From Actinomycetes bacterium (GTDB lineage: Bacteria > Actinomycetota > Acidimicrobiia > Acidimicrobiales > RAAP-2), in NCBI GenBank assembly GCA_021794655.1, contig JAJYQJ010000043.1, positions 1-35,927 on the forward strand: 35,927 nucleotides of DNA. The letters are read 5' to 3'. The notes below the pieces were generated by a model that did not search any database, was not told the DNA's origin, and saw only the letters and a program-made list of their open reading frames with translations. Positions 12,644 to 35,927 of the stretch are shown here, piece after piece. A program made the position numbers and the translations under genes. Position 1 is the stretch's first letter; each line of letters opens with the position of its first letter.

Positions 12644-14428
12644 TCACGCGCCCGAGCCGTAGAACGGCGCGTTGAACGCGAAGACGCCTCCGTCGGCGGC
12701 CACCTCCCAGTACCCCCCGGTTGCCGGGTCGGCCGAGATCCCAACTACCGCGGCGTTGAGCGGTGTTCCAGCCATCGAGCCGTAGAACGTTGCACCGGGG
12801 CCGAACGCGAAGACCCCACCGTCGGCGGCAACGAGATAGTACCCGTTACCACCTGGCACGGCGGCCATCCCGACAATCGGCTTATTGAGCGGTGTTCCAG
12901 CCATCGAGCCGTAGAACGTTGCACCGGGGCCGAACGCGAAGACGCCTCCGTCGGCGGCCACGAGGTAGTACCCGTTACCACCTGGCACGACGGCCATCCC
13001 GACGACCGCGGCGTTGAGTGGTGTTCCACCCATAGAGCCGTAGAACGGCGCGTTGAACGCGAAGACGCCTCCGTCGGCGGCCACCAGGTAGTACCCCCCG
13101 GTTGCCGGGTTGGCCGAGATCCCGACGACCGCGGCGTTCAGGGGATGGCCGTTCATCGAGCCGTAGAACTTCGCGTTGCCGAACGCGAAGACGCCTCCGT
13201 CAGATCCGGCTAACCAGTATCCCTTCGAGTCTGACGTGCTCGCGACGCCGACGACGGGAGCGTTGAGCGACACTCCGCTCGTCGATCCGTGGTAAGTCCC
13301 ACTTCCACTTGGGAATAGGTCACCGGTCGCATCCGTGGTCAAGTATCCTGTTCCACTACCGACGGTCGCGATGCCGACGAACGGTGGGACTCCATAGGTG
13401 AATGTGGAGTCGATCGTGGTTGAGCCGTTGGACTGTGGTCCTTCCAGTACGAGGGCGTTGTGCACCGGGTCAAATACCATCCCGTTTGGACTCACCGTCG
13501 TCGGGCTCGATGGTGTAAACAACCGGATCCAGGTGCTTCCGTTCCATGACCAAGTCGTATTCGATCCTCCGGGAAGAATTACGGTACCGGTATTGGGGTC
13601 GAAGACAGCTGGAGCATACGCGGACGGAGGAGGATTACTTGGCGGTGTGAGGCGGGACCAGGCTCCATTACTCCAGGACCAGGTGTCCCCTAACGCGTTG
13701 TTGTTGACGTCTAACCCTCCAAACAAGACGATACTTTGTGTCGTGGGGTCATAAGCCATCGTGGGCGCGTAGCGCGGCGATGGGTTCTGGGCGGAGAAAA
13801 CCCGGTTCCAGTTGGAGCCGTCCCAGCTCCAGGTATCGGCGAGGAGATTCCTGAGCCCAAATCCACCAAACAGGATCAACCTGTTTGCCGACGCGTCATA
13901 GACCATCGCAGCACCTGCGCGGACCGGGGGGCTCGTCGCTGGATGCAGTCTCTCCCAGTTCGATCCGTTCCAATCCCAGGTGCCACCGGGATCGCCAGCG
14001 GCGCCCATGCCCATACCTCCAAAGAGTATGAGTTGCCCGGTGCCCGGATCGTACGTCAAGGAGGCGTTCGACCGCACCGATGGACTCGTCGCGGGGTGCA
14101 ACTGGACCCACGCATTTCCGTTCCAATTCCACGTGTCGTTAAGAACCGTCCCATCAGGGAAGCACGAGCAGTTGCCAGTGAGGCCACCAAAGAGTATGAG
14201 CTGCCCGGTCGAGCCGTCGTAAGCGATCGCCGCACCGCTACGGATAGGCACGCTCGTTGGTGGGTTCAGCTTCATCCAACTCGGAGCGACCGGCGTCGCG
14301 CCCGCAGCGCGCGGCGCACTGACCAAGACGGCGGTGCCGATGATTCCTGGAACGACGGCCATCACACACAGTAGCGACCGGACGGATCGAACTCTTAAGA
14401 ACTCGTACAACGCGACGCGCCTCGTCAT
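12644..14428 (-). CDS. secreted Kelch-type and DGGVFAFG-repeat surface protein
   Basis: A 594-residue protein with a signal peptide (about residues 1-44, ending in RAAGA). Then come about six Kelch-like blades of the form W..L.P...P..R...A..YD..TGQLILFGG. The C-terminal third holds five to six repeats of about 41-43 residues with the core YYLVAADGGVFAFG...FYGSM.GTPLN..VVG. Both repeat types form beta-propellers in other proteins, so an exported double-propeller binding protein is likely; no catalytic motif is seen. ATG 14428 has AAGGTGG upstream and places the signal peptide at the N-terminus, so a longer frame to 14605 is rejected. DGGVFAFG repeats are common in secreted actinobacterial proteins. 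It converges on the response regulator with only 22 bases between them. Confidence 0.8.
   Translation of the reverse strand: MTRRVALYEFLRVRSVRSLLCVMAVVPGIIGTAVLVSAPRAAGATPVAPSWMKLNPPTSVPIRSGAAIAYDGSTGQLILFGGLTGNCSCFPDGTVLNDTWNWNGNAWVQLHPATSPSVRSNASLTYDPGTGQLILFGGMGMGAAGDPGGTWDWNGSNWERLHPATSPPVRAGAAMVYDASANRLILFGGFGLRNLLADTWSWDGSNWNRVFSAQNPSPRYAPTMAYDPTTQSIVLFGGLDVNNNALGDTWSWSNGAWSRLTPPSNPPPSAYAPAVFDPNTGTVILPGGSNTTWSWNGSTWIRLFTPSSPTTVSPNGMVFDPVHNALVLEGPQSNGSTTIDSTFTYGVPPFVGIATVGSGTGYLTTDATGDLFPSGSGTYHGSTSGVSLNAPVVGVASTSDSKGYWLAGSDGGVFAFGNAKFYGSMNGHPLNAAVVGISANPATGGYYLVAADGGVFAFNAPFYGSMGGTPLNAAVVGMAVVPGGNGYYLVAADGGVFAFGPGATFYGSMAGTPLNKPIVGMAAVPGGNGYYLVAADGGVFAFGPGATFYGSMAGTPLNAAVVGISADPATGGYWEVAADGGVFAFNAPFYGSGA
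12745..13029 (-). repeat. 129-bp near-identical direct repeats in the surface protein gene
   Basis: Two adjacent 129-bp units (43 codons each) are nearly identical at DNA level; for example acccgttaccacctggcacg recurs at 12841 and 12970. Shorter, more diverged copies flank them to about 13210. Recent duplication or gene conversion of propeller units is inferred. Confidence 0.85.
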
Positions 14429-31764: not shown

Positions 31765-32120
31765 ATTGCGTGACAGAATTGAATTTGTATCACTGGATAA
31801 AGGACCAGTTAGAGGGCAAAGGTTTTGACAAAGGTTTTGACGACGTCTGACCGAAAACGGGCTAGACTCTAGGTGGTGGAGCGTGTCGAGTGGGGAACGT
31901 CTTTGTCCGGTCGGCCTGATCTCTGGTCGGCCCGATCTCTGGTCGGCCCGATCTCTGGTCGGCCCGATCTCTGGTCGGCCCGATCTCTGGTCGGCCCGAT
32001 CCTGCGTTGGGTAGCTCGAGGTCTTTGCAGCTCGATCGAGTTTCGAAACGGATCAGAGGAGACATGTGGAACGACTCGGTTCGACCCTCGGGGTTGAGGG
32101 CACAGTAGGGAGGTAGGAGA
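31765..32120. other. long intergenic region with repeats before the GPGWW protein
   Basis: The 356-base gap holds a tandem 12-bp repeat aaaggttttgac at 31818-31841, the 16-bp array at 31909-32004 and a short frame from ATG 32064 to TAG 32106 (14 codons) in phase with the following gene. A Shine-Dalgarno-rich stretch agggaggtaggag lies at 32107-32119. No other gene is evident. Confidence 0.6.
31909..32004. repeat. 16-bp tandem array, six units
   Basis: Six 16-bp units ggtcggcccgatctct (first with one change, last diverged). Each contains the hyphenated palindrome TCGG-C-CCGA. Since 16 is not a multiple of three, open frames through it on either strand are artefacts. It lies between the acyltransferase and the GPGWW protein, upstream of the latter. 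Confidence 0.92.
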
Positions 32121-33092: not shown

Positions 33093-33568
33093 CTGAGCTA
33101 TCGCGCCGTAATAGCCAGTTTCAACTCTTAGACGAGCTGTTCGCGCGGGGCTTTGTGCAACTTGTCTCAAGTGGAGGATGGCGGATCTTGGGAATAGGTG
33201 GCAGCGAGTGTTGGGAACAGAAGACGGCGTATTTTAGGAATGGGTGGCCCGCTTTCGGGCTACCATGGGACAGTGGCCGGACAGTTCGCGGGGCCACGTG
33301 ACTTACTGGACCGTCGAGGAGTTGCTCGGTTTCCGCGCGACATCGAGCAGTCTCGGTCTTGCCCACGTCCTTTGCTCCTTCTATCGCATGTCCATGGACT
33401 CAGGCTAAAAGATGGACTCCACCTGGACGGGTTACGACGCTACACACGGACAGTATTCAGCGACACATCTGTGATTTATTCACGGTTTCCGCCGTCTGGA
33501 AGGGCAGGGCCACTCGTGGTAGAGCGACTCGTCGTCGTGTTGCGTCGTACTTCCCATCCCAGGTCAGT
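33093..33568. other. 476-base gap, low coding signal
   Basis: It separates the GPGWW gene from the convergent three-gene operon. A stable hairpin at 33243-33264 (stem GGTGGCCCG/CGGGCTACC, loop cttt) has no U-run. Several overlapping frames exist, for example GTG 33297 to TAA near 33407 with TYWTVEELLGF, but none is supported. The texture is less GC-regular than the genes to the left. I see no tRNA or attachment site. Confidence 0.5.
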
Positions 33569-34234
33569 TCAGGCGCGTCCCCTGTCTTCCGAGGAAAAGA
33601 ACGCGCCCGTTCGTCCAGTCTCTTGGCCCGGCGTGCCTGGTTGTTGGAGGAGTTGGATTATGTTTCCATCGTCGAGCTGGATCAGCGCATAGCGGAGCTG
33701 CTTTCGCGCTGCCTCGCTGATCGATGCGACCTTGACGACGTCGAGCCGATCGATCGTGCATTGATACGTGAGGTCAGCGATGCACTCGTCCACGAGCTGT
33801 TCTGGATGCGACGGAACCGGTAGGTACCCGATGACCCTTCCGGCAAGGAGGTTGCCACGCCCACCGCGAAGCTCAGTCGGATCGACGAGCGGGCCGACGA
33901 CGAGCGTTCGGTCAAGTGTCTCATCGGCAGTCGCTTCTCGTTCTGCTGCTTCAGTTTTCATGCCGCCCTTTTGCAGCTCGCGGACTCGTTGGTTCCACTC
34001 CTTGTCGAGTTGACAATCGTGAGTCACGACCATCGCAAGCCCGATTCCCGCGGCGATGCCCAACGGCTTTCCCGAATCCCAGGCATTATCAACCTGCAGA
34101 AAGTGCGCGTCGAGAGACTCCCATTGAGCCGGGCTATGGCGATCGTCCGCGATGATCCGGGAGACGCCGCAGAGGACGATATCCCCCTGGCGTGGCTCGT
34201 CGTGCCATTCGTAGAACTCGTCCGGGCTCATCAT
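33569..34234 (-). CDS. hypothetical protein with QGDI and THDC motifs, third gene of operon
   Basis: A 221-residue soluble protein I cannot assign to a named family. Visible features are RQGDIVL at about 15-21, followed by a central VVTHDCQLDKEW at 69-80 with possible metal-binding or catalytic His72, Asp73 and Cys74. A helical charged segment (about 85-110) and a beta-rich C-terminal half come next. A QGDI-type start together with a later T/S-x-D/T-C-D/Q-L motif is known to me from uncharacterised proteins of accessory regions; that is memory, not a search. The ATG overlaps the stop of the HTH gene (ATGA), so the product is probably made together with it. Confidence 0.7.
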   Translation of the reverse strand: MMSPDEFYEWHDEPRQGDIVLCGVSRIIADDRHSPAQWESLDAHFLQVDNAWDSGKPLGIAAGIGLAMVVTHDCQLDKEWNQRVRELQKGGMKTEAAEREATADETLDRTLVVGPLVDPTELRGGRGNLLAGRVIGYLPVPSHPEQLVDECIADLTYQCTIDRLDVVKVASISEAARKQLRYALIQLDDGNIIQLLQQPGTPGQETGRTGAFFSSEDRGRA

Positions 34235-35025
34235 CGGTATCCTCGGCGAGTCCTCCGAACCGGCTCGTCGGGCATCAGGTGATCGGCTCCCGAGAGGTCC
34301 TGCTCATAGTCGGACTCGGGGCGAATCGTCGCCGCTCTACCGAACGGACGCAGCTCTCCTTTGAGATACGCATCGAGGGCGTTCTGGTGGAGCGGACGCT
34401 TCGTCGATCGACGGTGCGTCACCGTCACCGACGGCGCTACCCCTTGGAGCGACTGCCAGGCGCGTGCATCCGTGAGGCGACCGGCAGCGATGTGGTCGAG
34501 GAGGTCTTGACTTCCCGAGCGACTGAGCAACACCTCCGTTGCCCGCCCCGGCCCGGTCGCGTCTATGTCCCTGACGACGTCGGCAAGGACTTGAAGCCGC
34601 GCCAGCTTTTCCTCACTTGGCGTGGCCTCCCCTTTGGCCCAAGCGCTCAAGGATCGGCGATCGACACCGAGTGCCCGAGCGATCTGTTCACGCGTGAGGC
34701 GCGTGCGGCGAGCAATCTCGTCGCGGAGCTTCTGTACTTCCTCCCGCACCGGGCGGGGAGGGCTGGTGTAGGTGATGCCTGTCTCGGTCGAGCTGACGTC
34801 GATCCGCCAGAACCGACTGGCCCAGCTCGAAACCGCACCAGTCATTCGCTCCGCACCGAGAATCAGGTCGTCAAGGTCGCGAACGACGAAAGGCATGCCG
34901 AGCCTCGTCGTCGTCGAGGACTTCCGCTCAAAGAGTGAGTCGGCGATTGGGAGGATCGACCATTGCCCCTCCACGTCCACCTCGTCGTGGCGGGGGGCTC
35001 GCTGTGCCTGTAGCTGTGGACTCAT
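34231..35025 (-). CDS. helix-turn-helix (XRE-like) regulator, second gene of operon
   Basis: A 264-residue protein with a central HTH at about 108-146 (LTREQIARALGVDRRSLSAWAKGEATPSEEKLARL), typical of XRE/Cro-type DNA binding. It is flanked by an N-terminal domain of about 100 residues and a C-terminal part of about 115, both unassigned. This is longer than simple repressors, so the flanking parts may sense a ligand or bind the operon partners. It overlaps both neighbours by four bases. Autoregulation through the palindrome AGTATACT in the operon promoter (35841-35848) is a reasonable guess. Confidence 0.8.
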   Translation of the reverse strand: MSPQLQAQRAPRHDEVDVEGQWSILPIADSLFERKSSTTTRLGMPFVVRDLDDLILGAERMTGAVSSWASRFWRIDVSSTETGITYTSPPRPVREEVQKLRDEIARRTRLTREQIARALGVDRRSLSAWAKGEATPSEEKLARLQVLADVVRDIDATGPGRATEVLLSRSGSQDLLDHIAAGRLTDARAWQSLQGVAPSVTVTHRRSTKRPLHQNALDAYLKGELRPFGRAATIRPESDYEQDLSGADHLMPDEPVRRTRRGYR

Positions 35026-35831
35026 CGTTCAGCTCCGAACTCGTCGAGAAACGTGTCAGTTACGGCCCACCGGAAGAACGTGTAGATGCGTTCGCAGAAG
35101 TCAGCAGCTTTCCCGCCGATTGCGGCGAGGTCGAAGTCCTCTGACTGCGAGGTGTAATGGTCTAAGTCCAGCACCCACGATGGTTCTCGGGCCGGTTCGA
35201 TGCCGGGGTCGTACGTGGCCCCGGCCGGAAGCCTGCCCCACCGACCACGGAGCTGCGACGCATCGTCGAGCTGGAACAGTGTGTCAGACAGTGCATGAAC
35301 AACGTTGATATTGCCGAGCACAGCCTCGTCGCCACCGACACCGAGGATCTCCGGACGCACGAGTGTGTGCAACCGGCCGAGCTGGTCGCCCGTCACCCGA
35401 TCCACGTAACGCACGCCGATACGATCGCAGATGTTGGGGTGGAGCCAGCCTTCAAGGGCGTGGAGGACCACGGCGAACCGGGTGAGAAGGTCGCTTCGCC
35501 GGGTGTAACGTTTCGCCGAGAGGGAGACGAAGGTCGGGGCCAGCGTCACCTGCCAGGTGTCAGGGTCCTTCGCCTGGAACCGCCAGACCGTCCCGGCATC
35601 CTGTGGTCGGACGCCTTCCGGCCCAATCAAGACCCCGAGCTGACGCTCTGGACGGAGGATCGGGTAGTCCTTCCGAATCAACTCCTGGAAGGTCGCCACG
35701 AATCCGCTGTCAGCCTCGATCTTCATCACGGCAGGGAAGCGGACCTGAGCGATTACGTTCACCAGGGGAGTCCTGGTCAGCGGCACCTCCTGCACGGAAG
35801 GGCCAAACGGCTCCATCGTCATCGTGTTCAT
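35022..35831 (-). CDS. TIGR04255-family protein, first gene of operon
   Basis: A 269-residue protein from ATG 35831. The N-terminal PLVNVIAQVRFPAV, the middle WQVTLAPTFVSLSAKRYTRR and the later RIGVRYVDRV match the pattern of the TIGR04255 family, whose members are sporadic and of unknown function. An in-frame start at 35873 would lie upstream of the likely promoter (-35 TTCCCA, 17 bases, -10 TATACT at 35841-35869), so ATG 35831, or 35822, is preferred; the transcript would be almost leaderless. The stop overlaps the HTH gene. Confidence 0.75.
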   Translation of the reverse strand: MNTMTMEPFGPSVQEVPLTRTPLVNVIAQVRFPAVMKIEADSGFVATFQELIRKDYPILRPERQLGVLIGPEGVRPQDAGTVWRFQAKDPDTWQVTLAPTFVSLSAKRYTRRSDLLTRFAVVLHALEGWLHPNICDRIGVRYVDRVTGDQLGRLHTLVRPEILGVGGDEAVLGNINVVHALSDTLFQLDDASQLRGRWGRLPAGATYDPGIEPAREPSWVLDLDHYTSQSEDFDLAAIGGKAADFCERIYTFFRWAVTDTFLDEFGAER

Positions 35832-35840
35832 TGCCTTCCC

Positions 35841-35869
35841 AGTATACTTCCTAACATATCGATTGGGAA
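35841..35869 (-). promoter_or_regulatory. putative promoter of the three-gene operon with palindrome
   Basis: On the minus strand TTCCCA (35869-35864), 17 bases, then TATACT (35846-35841). The -10 box lies in the palindrome AGTATACT (35841-35848), a possible operator for the HTH protein. The expected RNA start is only a few bases before ATG 35831. A weaker plus-strand promoter (TTGCCT at 35831, CATATC at 35855) overlaps it and could serve the divergent gene. Confidence 0.5.
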
Positions 35870-35891
35870 CCATCGGAGGTGTAACAGCATC

Positions 35892-35927
35892 ATGGCAGGA
35901 ACCGAGCGAGGCACGCGAGGCAAGAAG
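35892..35927 (+). CDS. 5' end of a divergent gene cut by the window edge
   Basis: ATG 35892 is preceded by GGAGG at 35875-35879 and opens a frame of 12 codons (MAGTERGTRGKK) to the window end. The strong Shine-Dalgarno sequence and the divergent position opposite the three-gene operon suggest a real gene and possibly a fourth component. Too little is visible to name it. Confidence 0.5.
   Translation, partial: MAGTERGTRGKK

Follow-up and report, generated by a model that had tools for sequence, protein, structure and literature searches.

What do three overlapping genes at the end of a bacterial contig do together, when one of them encodes a DNA-binding (helix-turn-helix, HTH) protein and two others resist annotation? 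The first-pass annotation likened their layout to accessory defence or stress modules, which raises the further question of whether the set acts in defence itself or governs genes that do. To our knowledge, the control of restriction and other costly defence genes in bacteria is poorly known, and few regulators have been described. Here, we follow the set through its close relatives and through more distant genomes and plasmids.

A compact operon of three constrained genes

The stretch of DNA analysed here (the window) is one entire contig (C4, 35,927 bp) from an assembly of 2.7 Mb in 155 contigs. At its right end, three open reading frames (ORFs) lie on the minus strand (35022-35873, 34231-35025 and 33569-34234), and both neighbouring pairs, gene 1/2 and gene 2/3, overlap by exactly 4 bp, as had been read from the letters alone. 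For gene 1, the ATG at 35831, behind a GGAAGG, fits the relatives best and gives a protein of about 269 amino acids (35022..35831). It is a clear, full-length member of the NCBIfam family TIGR04255 (sporadTIGR04255), a family without assigned function (133.5 bits against a curated cut-off of 30, E=1.1e-38, profile positions 2-252 of 252), and is 81-88% identical to its close relatives (dN/dS 0.07-0.10). The products of the other two genes fall outside the definition of this family. Gene 2 (34231..35025, minus strand) encodes 264 amino acids with a single XRE/HTH_3 domain (residues 110-144, E=1e-6); this is large for an XRE-type regulator and agrees with the earlier description of an oversized one. 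Its helix GVDRRSLSAW is conserved (dN/dS 0.10-0.18). Gene 3 (33569..34234, minus strand) encodes a QGD...THDC protein of 221 amino acids, intact at about 256 in relatives, with no match in Pfam, NCBIfam, PADLOC or PHROG. Across genes 1-3, dN/dS against relatives is 0.04-0.18, and we therefore regard all three as real genes under purifying selection.

Domain profile searches recognise no toxin or nuclease domain in the three proteins. Pfam and NCBIfam give no kinase or STAS match for any of them and no WYL domain in gene 2 at E up to 1, and Pfam gives no RES or DUF2384 match. The HTH region of gene 2 shows weak, sub-cut-off similarity to Xre antitoxin models (e.g. 13.8 bits against a cut-off of 90 for Xre_ParS). 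In PADLOC 2.0.0, genes 1 and 3 are without match and gene 2 has HTH-level similarity to RmrA only. Sequence searches of the PDB with the trio proteins return nothing meaningful, including no relative of TIGR04255, and AlphaFold2 reaches a mean pLDDT of only 38 for gene 3 (modelled on the intact relative L006) and 33 for gene 1 because the alignment rows are limited to closely similar sequences. Scans of IMG/VR yield one HTH-only match and no relative of gene 3 or TIGR04255, and tblastn of gene 3 against plasmids and phages finds no match.

Facing the trio, the 5' part of a small divergent gene (MAGTERGTRGKK..., 35892..35927, plus strand) is cut by the contig end. The strong ribosome site proposed for it is present (an ORF with GGAGG at 35892), and an ORF of 53-57 amino acids stands at the same place in five relatives (L003, L004, L005, L006 and L013) with a conserved N-terminus, MAETxKGKKxVYVHxYxRADGTxVPAHxRSTP. 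Lying across the operator from the trio, it is possibly a fourth component. The different base texture that had been suggested for the operon is not borne out: TCG plus CGA occur at 76.5 per kb, within the left-part range of 56.5-104.5 (22% of left-part windows lie below the operon's value), and GC content is 62.3% against 63.5%. Elsewhere, the window holds a near-perfect, intergenic 16-bp tandem repeat at 31909-32001 (GGTCGGCCCGATCTCT, 5.8 copies, 98% match) and an imperfect 129-bp tandem repeat at 12674-13201 (4.2 copies); the period of the latter is a multiple of three, and it is probably a repeated protein domain.

An operator-like element that tracks the HTH protein

Directly upstream of gene 1 lies the operator-like element TTCCCA-N11-TAGGAA-GTATAC-TGGGAA (35836..35869, minus strand), whose geometry recurs in relatives. 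Most close-clade loci carry TTCCCA-N11-TGGGAA-GTATAC-TGGGAA upstream of gene 1 in a constant 33-bp geometry, and in L022, L038 and L039 four boxes make up a full dyad. The window has a mutation in the inner box (TAGGAA, against TGGGAA in most relatives), and the strict form of the element has no match in the genome. The palindrome that the first-pass annotation saw in the promoter (AGTATACT) is there, but what is conserved is the larger element of TGGGAA boxes. As a functional core the palindrome was rejected: it is broken in L007, L011, L013, L021 and L038, where the TGGGAA boxes are largely kept.

The boxes are 6-bp words (TGGGAA or TGTGAA) with a 12-bp period. Distant trios use other words and keep the period, for example TGTGAAGTAGAG/TGTGAA in Kocuria, TGTGAAGTACAG/TGTGAA in Paenarthrobacter, TGTGAAGTAGTC/TGTGAA in L078, TTCACACTCTAA/TTCACA in Chroococcidiopsis and TTTCACTTTACG/TTTCAC in Rhizobium. 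Among diverged TIGR04255 loci, 8 of 29 have an exact 6-mer direct repeat at 12-bp spacing within about 115 bp upstream, compared with 0.58 such loci on average, and never more than 4, over 2000 shuffled trials; every other repeat distance occurs at no more than 4 of the 29. Several diverged trios lack the 12-bp repeat. The word also varies with the HTH protein: SRRxxHxW accompanies TGTGAA (L066, L069, L070 and L078), RQxxYNW accompanies TTTCAC in rhizobia, and DRRSLSAW accompanies TGGGAA. The box word thus appears to track the recognition helix, a correlation that suggests, rather than proves, that the HTH protein binds the boxes.

Defence genes behind the trio in close relatives

When loci are collected by gene 2, taking one genome per species, the three genes are adjacent and in the same order at all 11 (MAGs labelled Actinomycetes or Acidimicrobiales); co-occurrence, proposed as a check on the operon, holds in every close relative found. 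The distribution is sporadic. The HTH protein has a match in 6 of 148 relatives (two of the six weak), a profile search across 296 genomes of the class gives 11 with a match (several of these weak), and of 396 genomes from the phylum 31 have TIGR04255. The neighbours, which were to be checked as well, are restriction-modification, CBASS, Thoeris-type TIR, AbiE and Hma genes or integrases.

Restriction-modification DNA comes next at 9 of 13 close-clade loci, selected for readable downstream sequence; it is intact in L023, L009 and L021 and partial in L003, L004, L005, L008, L011 and the window. In L023 (the same place as L006), the trio is followed by HsdM, an HsdS-like protein, HsdR and a Schlafen AlbA_2 protein (N6_Mtase 3.9e-107, HSDR_N 1.2e-44, T1RH-like_C 2.8e-111), and the HsdM start overlaps the last base of gene 3. 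L009 has the same gene order from ORF reading, and both loci are type I restriction-modification operons, with HsdM and HsdR genes directly behind the trio. In L021 the followers are of type III, namely Mod (N6_N4_Mtase) and a Res helicase that includes an endonuclease domain, with a SIR2 protein behind them. The four loci without restriction-modification DNA directly downstream are L013, L022, L038 and L039; L013 has genes for a SLATT protein and a CBASS cyclase behind the trio, L039 has Fic and HmaB/HmaC genes in the island around it, and L038 adjoins a phage-type integrase.

L008 keeps an intact trio and, at L008:9561-10364, a mod start fused in frame to the end of a Res endonuclease (RE_endonuc, 6e-9), a structure left by one large internal deletion; beyond it stand the same Schlafen-type gene (ORF reading) and then AbiE. 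A truncated mod or hsdM is retained in L003, L005 and L011, and the L004 contig ends inside mod. Judged by gene order, what the relatives have is a defence operon with the cassette at its head.

The copy in the window has decayed

Directly after gene 3, the window retains the N-terminus of a type III-like methyltransferase (33472..33573, minus strand), of which about 34 codons are left (APELTWDGKYDATRRRVALPRVALPFQTAETVNKS, 31-40 residues in the matches) before a stop. In tblastn, Mod or remnant ORFs of L003, L008 and L021/L016 match it at 65-74% identity (E 3e-15 to 3e-10). The mod ATG is lost: where L008 reads GCCATGCCTGAGCTGA, the window has GACGCGCCTGAACTGA. A stop is soon met in frame, and no intact copy of the truncated mod was found elsewhere in the genome (best match 33% identical). 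Near the point of truncation, at 33174-33248, two 29-nt direct repeats (TTGGGAATAGGTGGC and TTAGGAATGGGTGGC) lie 46 bp apart. They are reminiscent of insertion-sequence ends, and the restriction genes may have been lost through an insertion sequence.

Gene 3 itself carries an in-frame deletion of 37 residues (111 bp) relative to all relatives. In five relatives, near-identical 12-bp direct repeats at gene 3 positions 553 and 664 bound these 111 bp; the window keeps the repeat at position 553 only, and this lone copy (TCCAGCTCGACG, 33670..33681, minus strand) is a deletion scar of the kind that slippage or recombination between short repeats would leave. The missing C-terminal segment (LDALRTADLGFEVEAVVGRTIQKVEVPARNPLTVR in L005) is conserved across the clade, and its loss has probably impaired the gene 3 product. 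Neither this deletion, nor the mod remnant, nor the fact that the window is a whole contig was part of the first-pass annotation.

With a mod remnant alone behind it, the window copy does not belong to a type I or type III restriction-modification operon. It is an orphan, the decayed remnant of what is probably such an operon's control cassette, and it probably no longer controls any restriction system. The proposal of an accessory defence module therefore stands as regards co-occurrence and defence neighbours, and fails as regards an intact operon. What the conserved operator suggests is a cassette that controls the defence genes behind it, either instead of being a defence effector or in addition to that.

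A wider family of trios, often on plasmids

Other Actinobacteria, as well as cyanobacteria and rhizobia, have the same three-gene order, frequently on a conjugative plasmid; examples come from plasmids of Chroococcidiopsis, Rhizobium, Sinorhizobium, Kocuria and Paenarthrobacter. Many of the plasmid trios have no restriction genes with them, and such free-standing copies occur on conjugative or mobilizable plasmids of three phyla. The third proteins of the wider family share a signature, QGD...[TS][HQ]xCD. They start with QGD and have a hydrophobic strand ending in [TSA][HQ]xC (e.g. TQTCD, THDCQ, SHDCH or SHACD). A motif search places a QGD-type protein behind TIGR04255 at 18 distinct loci of 33 located, with mostly short flanks; one further motif match, in L075, is a deaminase and was left out. 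Profile alignment of the close clade with the larger TQTCD group (p=1.4e-5, 80% probability) suggests that their third proteins are likely to be remote homologues, and of seven plasmid records matching the cyanobacterial third protein six have a TIGR04255 gene. A second, distant TIGR04255-HTH-(AHPC) trio lies in the same genome beside nuo genes (L065; G000:C39, 630-2822), and profile comparison of gene 3 with its third protein, from two sequences only, is negative. In L061, L062 and L063, TIGR04255 is followed, without an HTH gene, by a gene with a GWDGxGAxP-like motif, a different partner family.

Two actinobacterial trios have defence genes close by. The first (G443, L090) has a Thoeris-type ThsB TIR protein (5e-115) encoded behind it and a candidate-defence gene (PDC-M30A model, 8e-25) upstream, and the other (G210, L096) has HsdR and an AbiEii-type nucleotidyltransferase nearby.

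Control cassette or defence system?

We lean, by a modest measure, towards the view that the trio is a control cassette at the promoter end of a restriction-modification operon which, in the window, has lost its restriction genes. The HTH protein would bind the 12-bp-spaced boxes at its own promoter and so govern its own gene, those of its two partners and whatever defence genes are fused to them; the conservation of the boxes, and the way their word varies with the HTH helix, lend this indirect support. The TIGR04255 and QGD/HxCD proteins, which have no known domain, would act with it as sensor or modulator and might release or tighten control as foreign DNA comes in or as the island settles in a new host. 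The plasmid trios that stand alone without restriction genes imply that restriction control is not the cassette's sole role. A broader proposal, which we hold tentatively and with clearly less confidence, is a three-protein immune or plasmid-competition system (TIGR04255, the box-binding HTH protein and the conserved-cysteine QGD/[TS][HQ]xCD protein) that would sense invading DNA and switch on fused defence genes, on plasmids and islands of at least three phyla.

The same plasmid trios, on conjugative or mobilizable elements of three phyla, lend weight to a rival that we consider possible, though on balance doubtful. Here the trio would be a system in its own right, whether anti-phage, anti-plasmid or toxin-antitoxin-like, the restriction genes being merely fused behind it in one clade, the HTH protein an autorepressing neutraliser, and the effector TIGR04255, the conserved-cysteine third protein or both. 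Purifying selection on all three genes is in its favour, as are L003, L005, L008 and L011, which keep the trio while their restriction genes decay, and the invariant QGD and HxC residues, which suggest a catalytic or binding site. It must, however, accommodate the absence of any recognised toxin or nuclease domain and of a PADLOC match, as well as stop codons or frameshifts in the trio genes of L003, L007, L010 and L012; several relatives are low-coverage MAG contigs, and some of these broken copies are possibly sequencing errors. By analogy with CapK/CapS, the control-cassette and self-standing readings are compatible rather than exclusive.

Direct operon fusion with hsdM or mod could also mean that the TIGR04255 or the gene 3 product works as an accessory enzyme, modulating the specificity or activity of the restriction/methylation complex itself, not transcription. 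Yet the same trio is found in front of type I, type III and CBASS genes, and also by itself, and it therefore cannot depend on one partner complex; we think this explanation improbable. Still less credible is a housekeeping or chance cluster unrelated to defence: some distant trios do lie among metabolic genes, and the second copy adjoins nuo genes, but such a cluster sits badly with the sporadic distribution and with the integrases and defence genes next door.

Relation to known regulators, and meaning

As the control cassette that we favour, the trio would be analogous to BrxR/CapW, RptR or CapK/CapS, built from unrelated proteins with no tested domain in common. RptR is described as a DNA-binding regulator linked to type I restriction operons that acts on repeated sites in the island promoter; it is one small protein that recognises TAGCTA, whereas the trio has three proteins, including a predicted regulator, and TGGGAA/TGTGAA every 12 bp (PMC12255303). 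BrxR and CapW are described as WYL-domain HTH regulators co-localised with diverse defence systems and islands (PMC9122601, PMC9122589). Without WYL, and with two conserved partner genes, the HTH protein of the trio does not belong with them. CapK/CapS is described as pairing an anti-sigma-factor-like kinase with a STAS-like repressor linked to defence operons (PMC13373217); the trio proteins, lacking kinase and STAS matches, fall outside this type too. Type II HTH-antitoxin operons (RES/Xre and similar) resemble the trio in their overlapping genes, HTH protein and repeat operator at the operon's own promoter, but the trio has three genes and no known toxin domain, and belongs to neither the RES/Xre nor the MbcA type. 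In the literature searched, we found no published description of the trio and no relevant paper naming TIGR04255 or the TQTCD motif.

If the favoured reading is true, the trio would be a control cassette of a new kind whose operator can be predicted, common to restriction, CBASS and Thoeris-type neighbourhoods and present on conjugative plasmids. TIGR04255, until now a name with no role attached, would then gain its first testable one.
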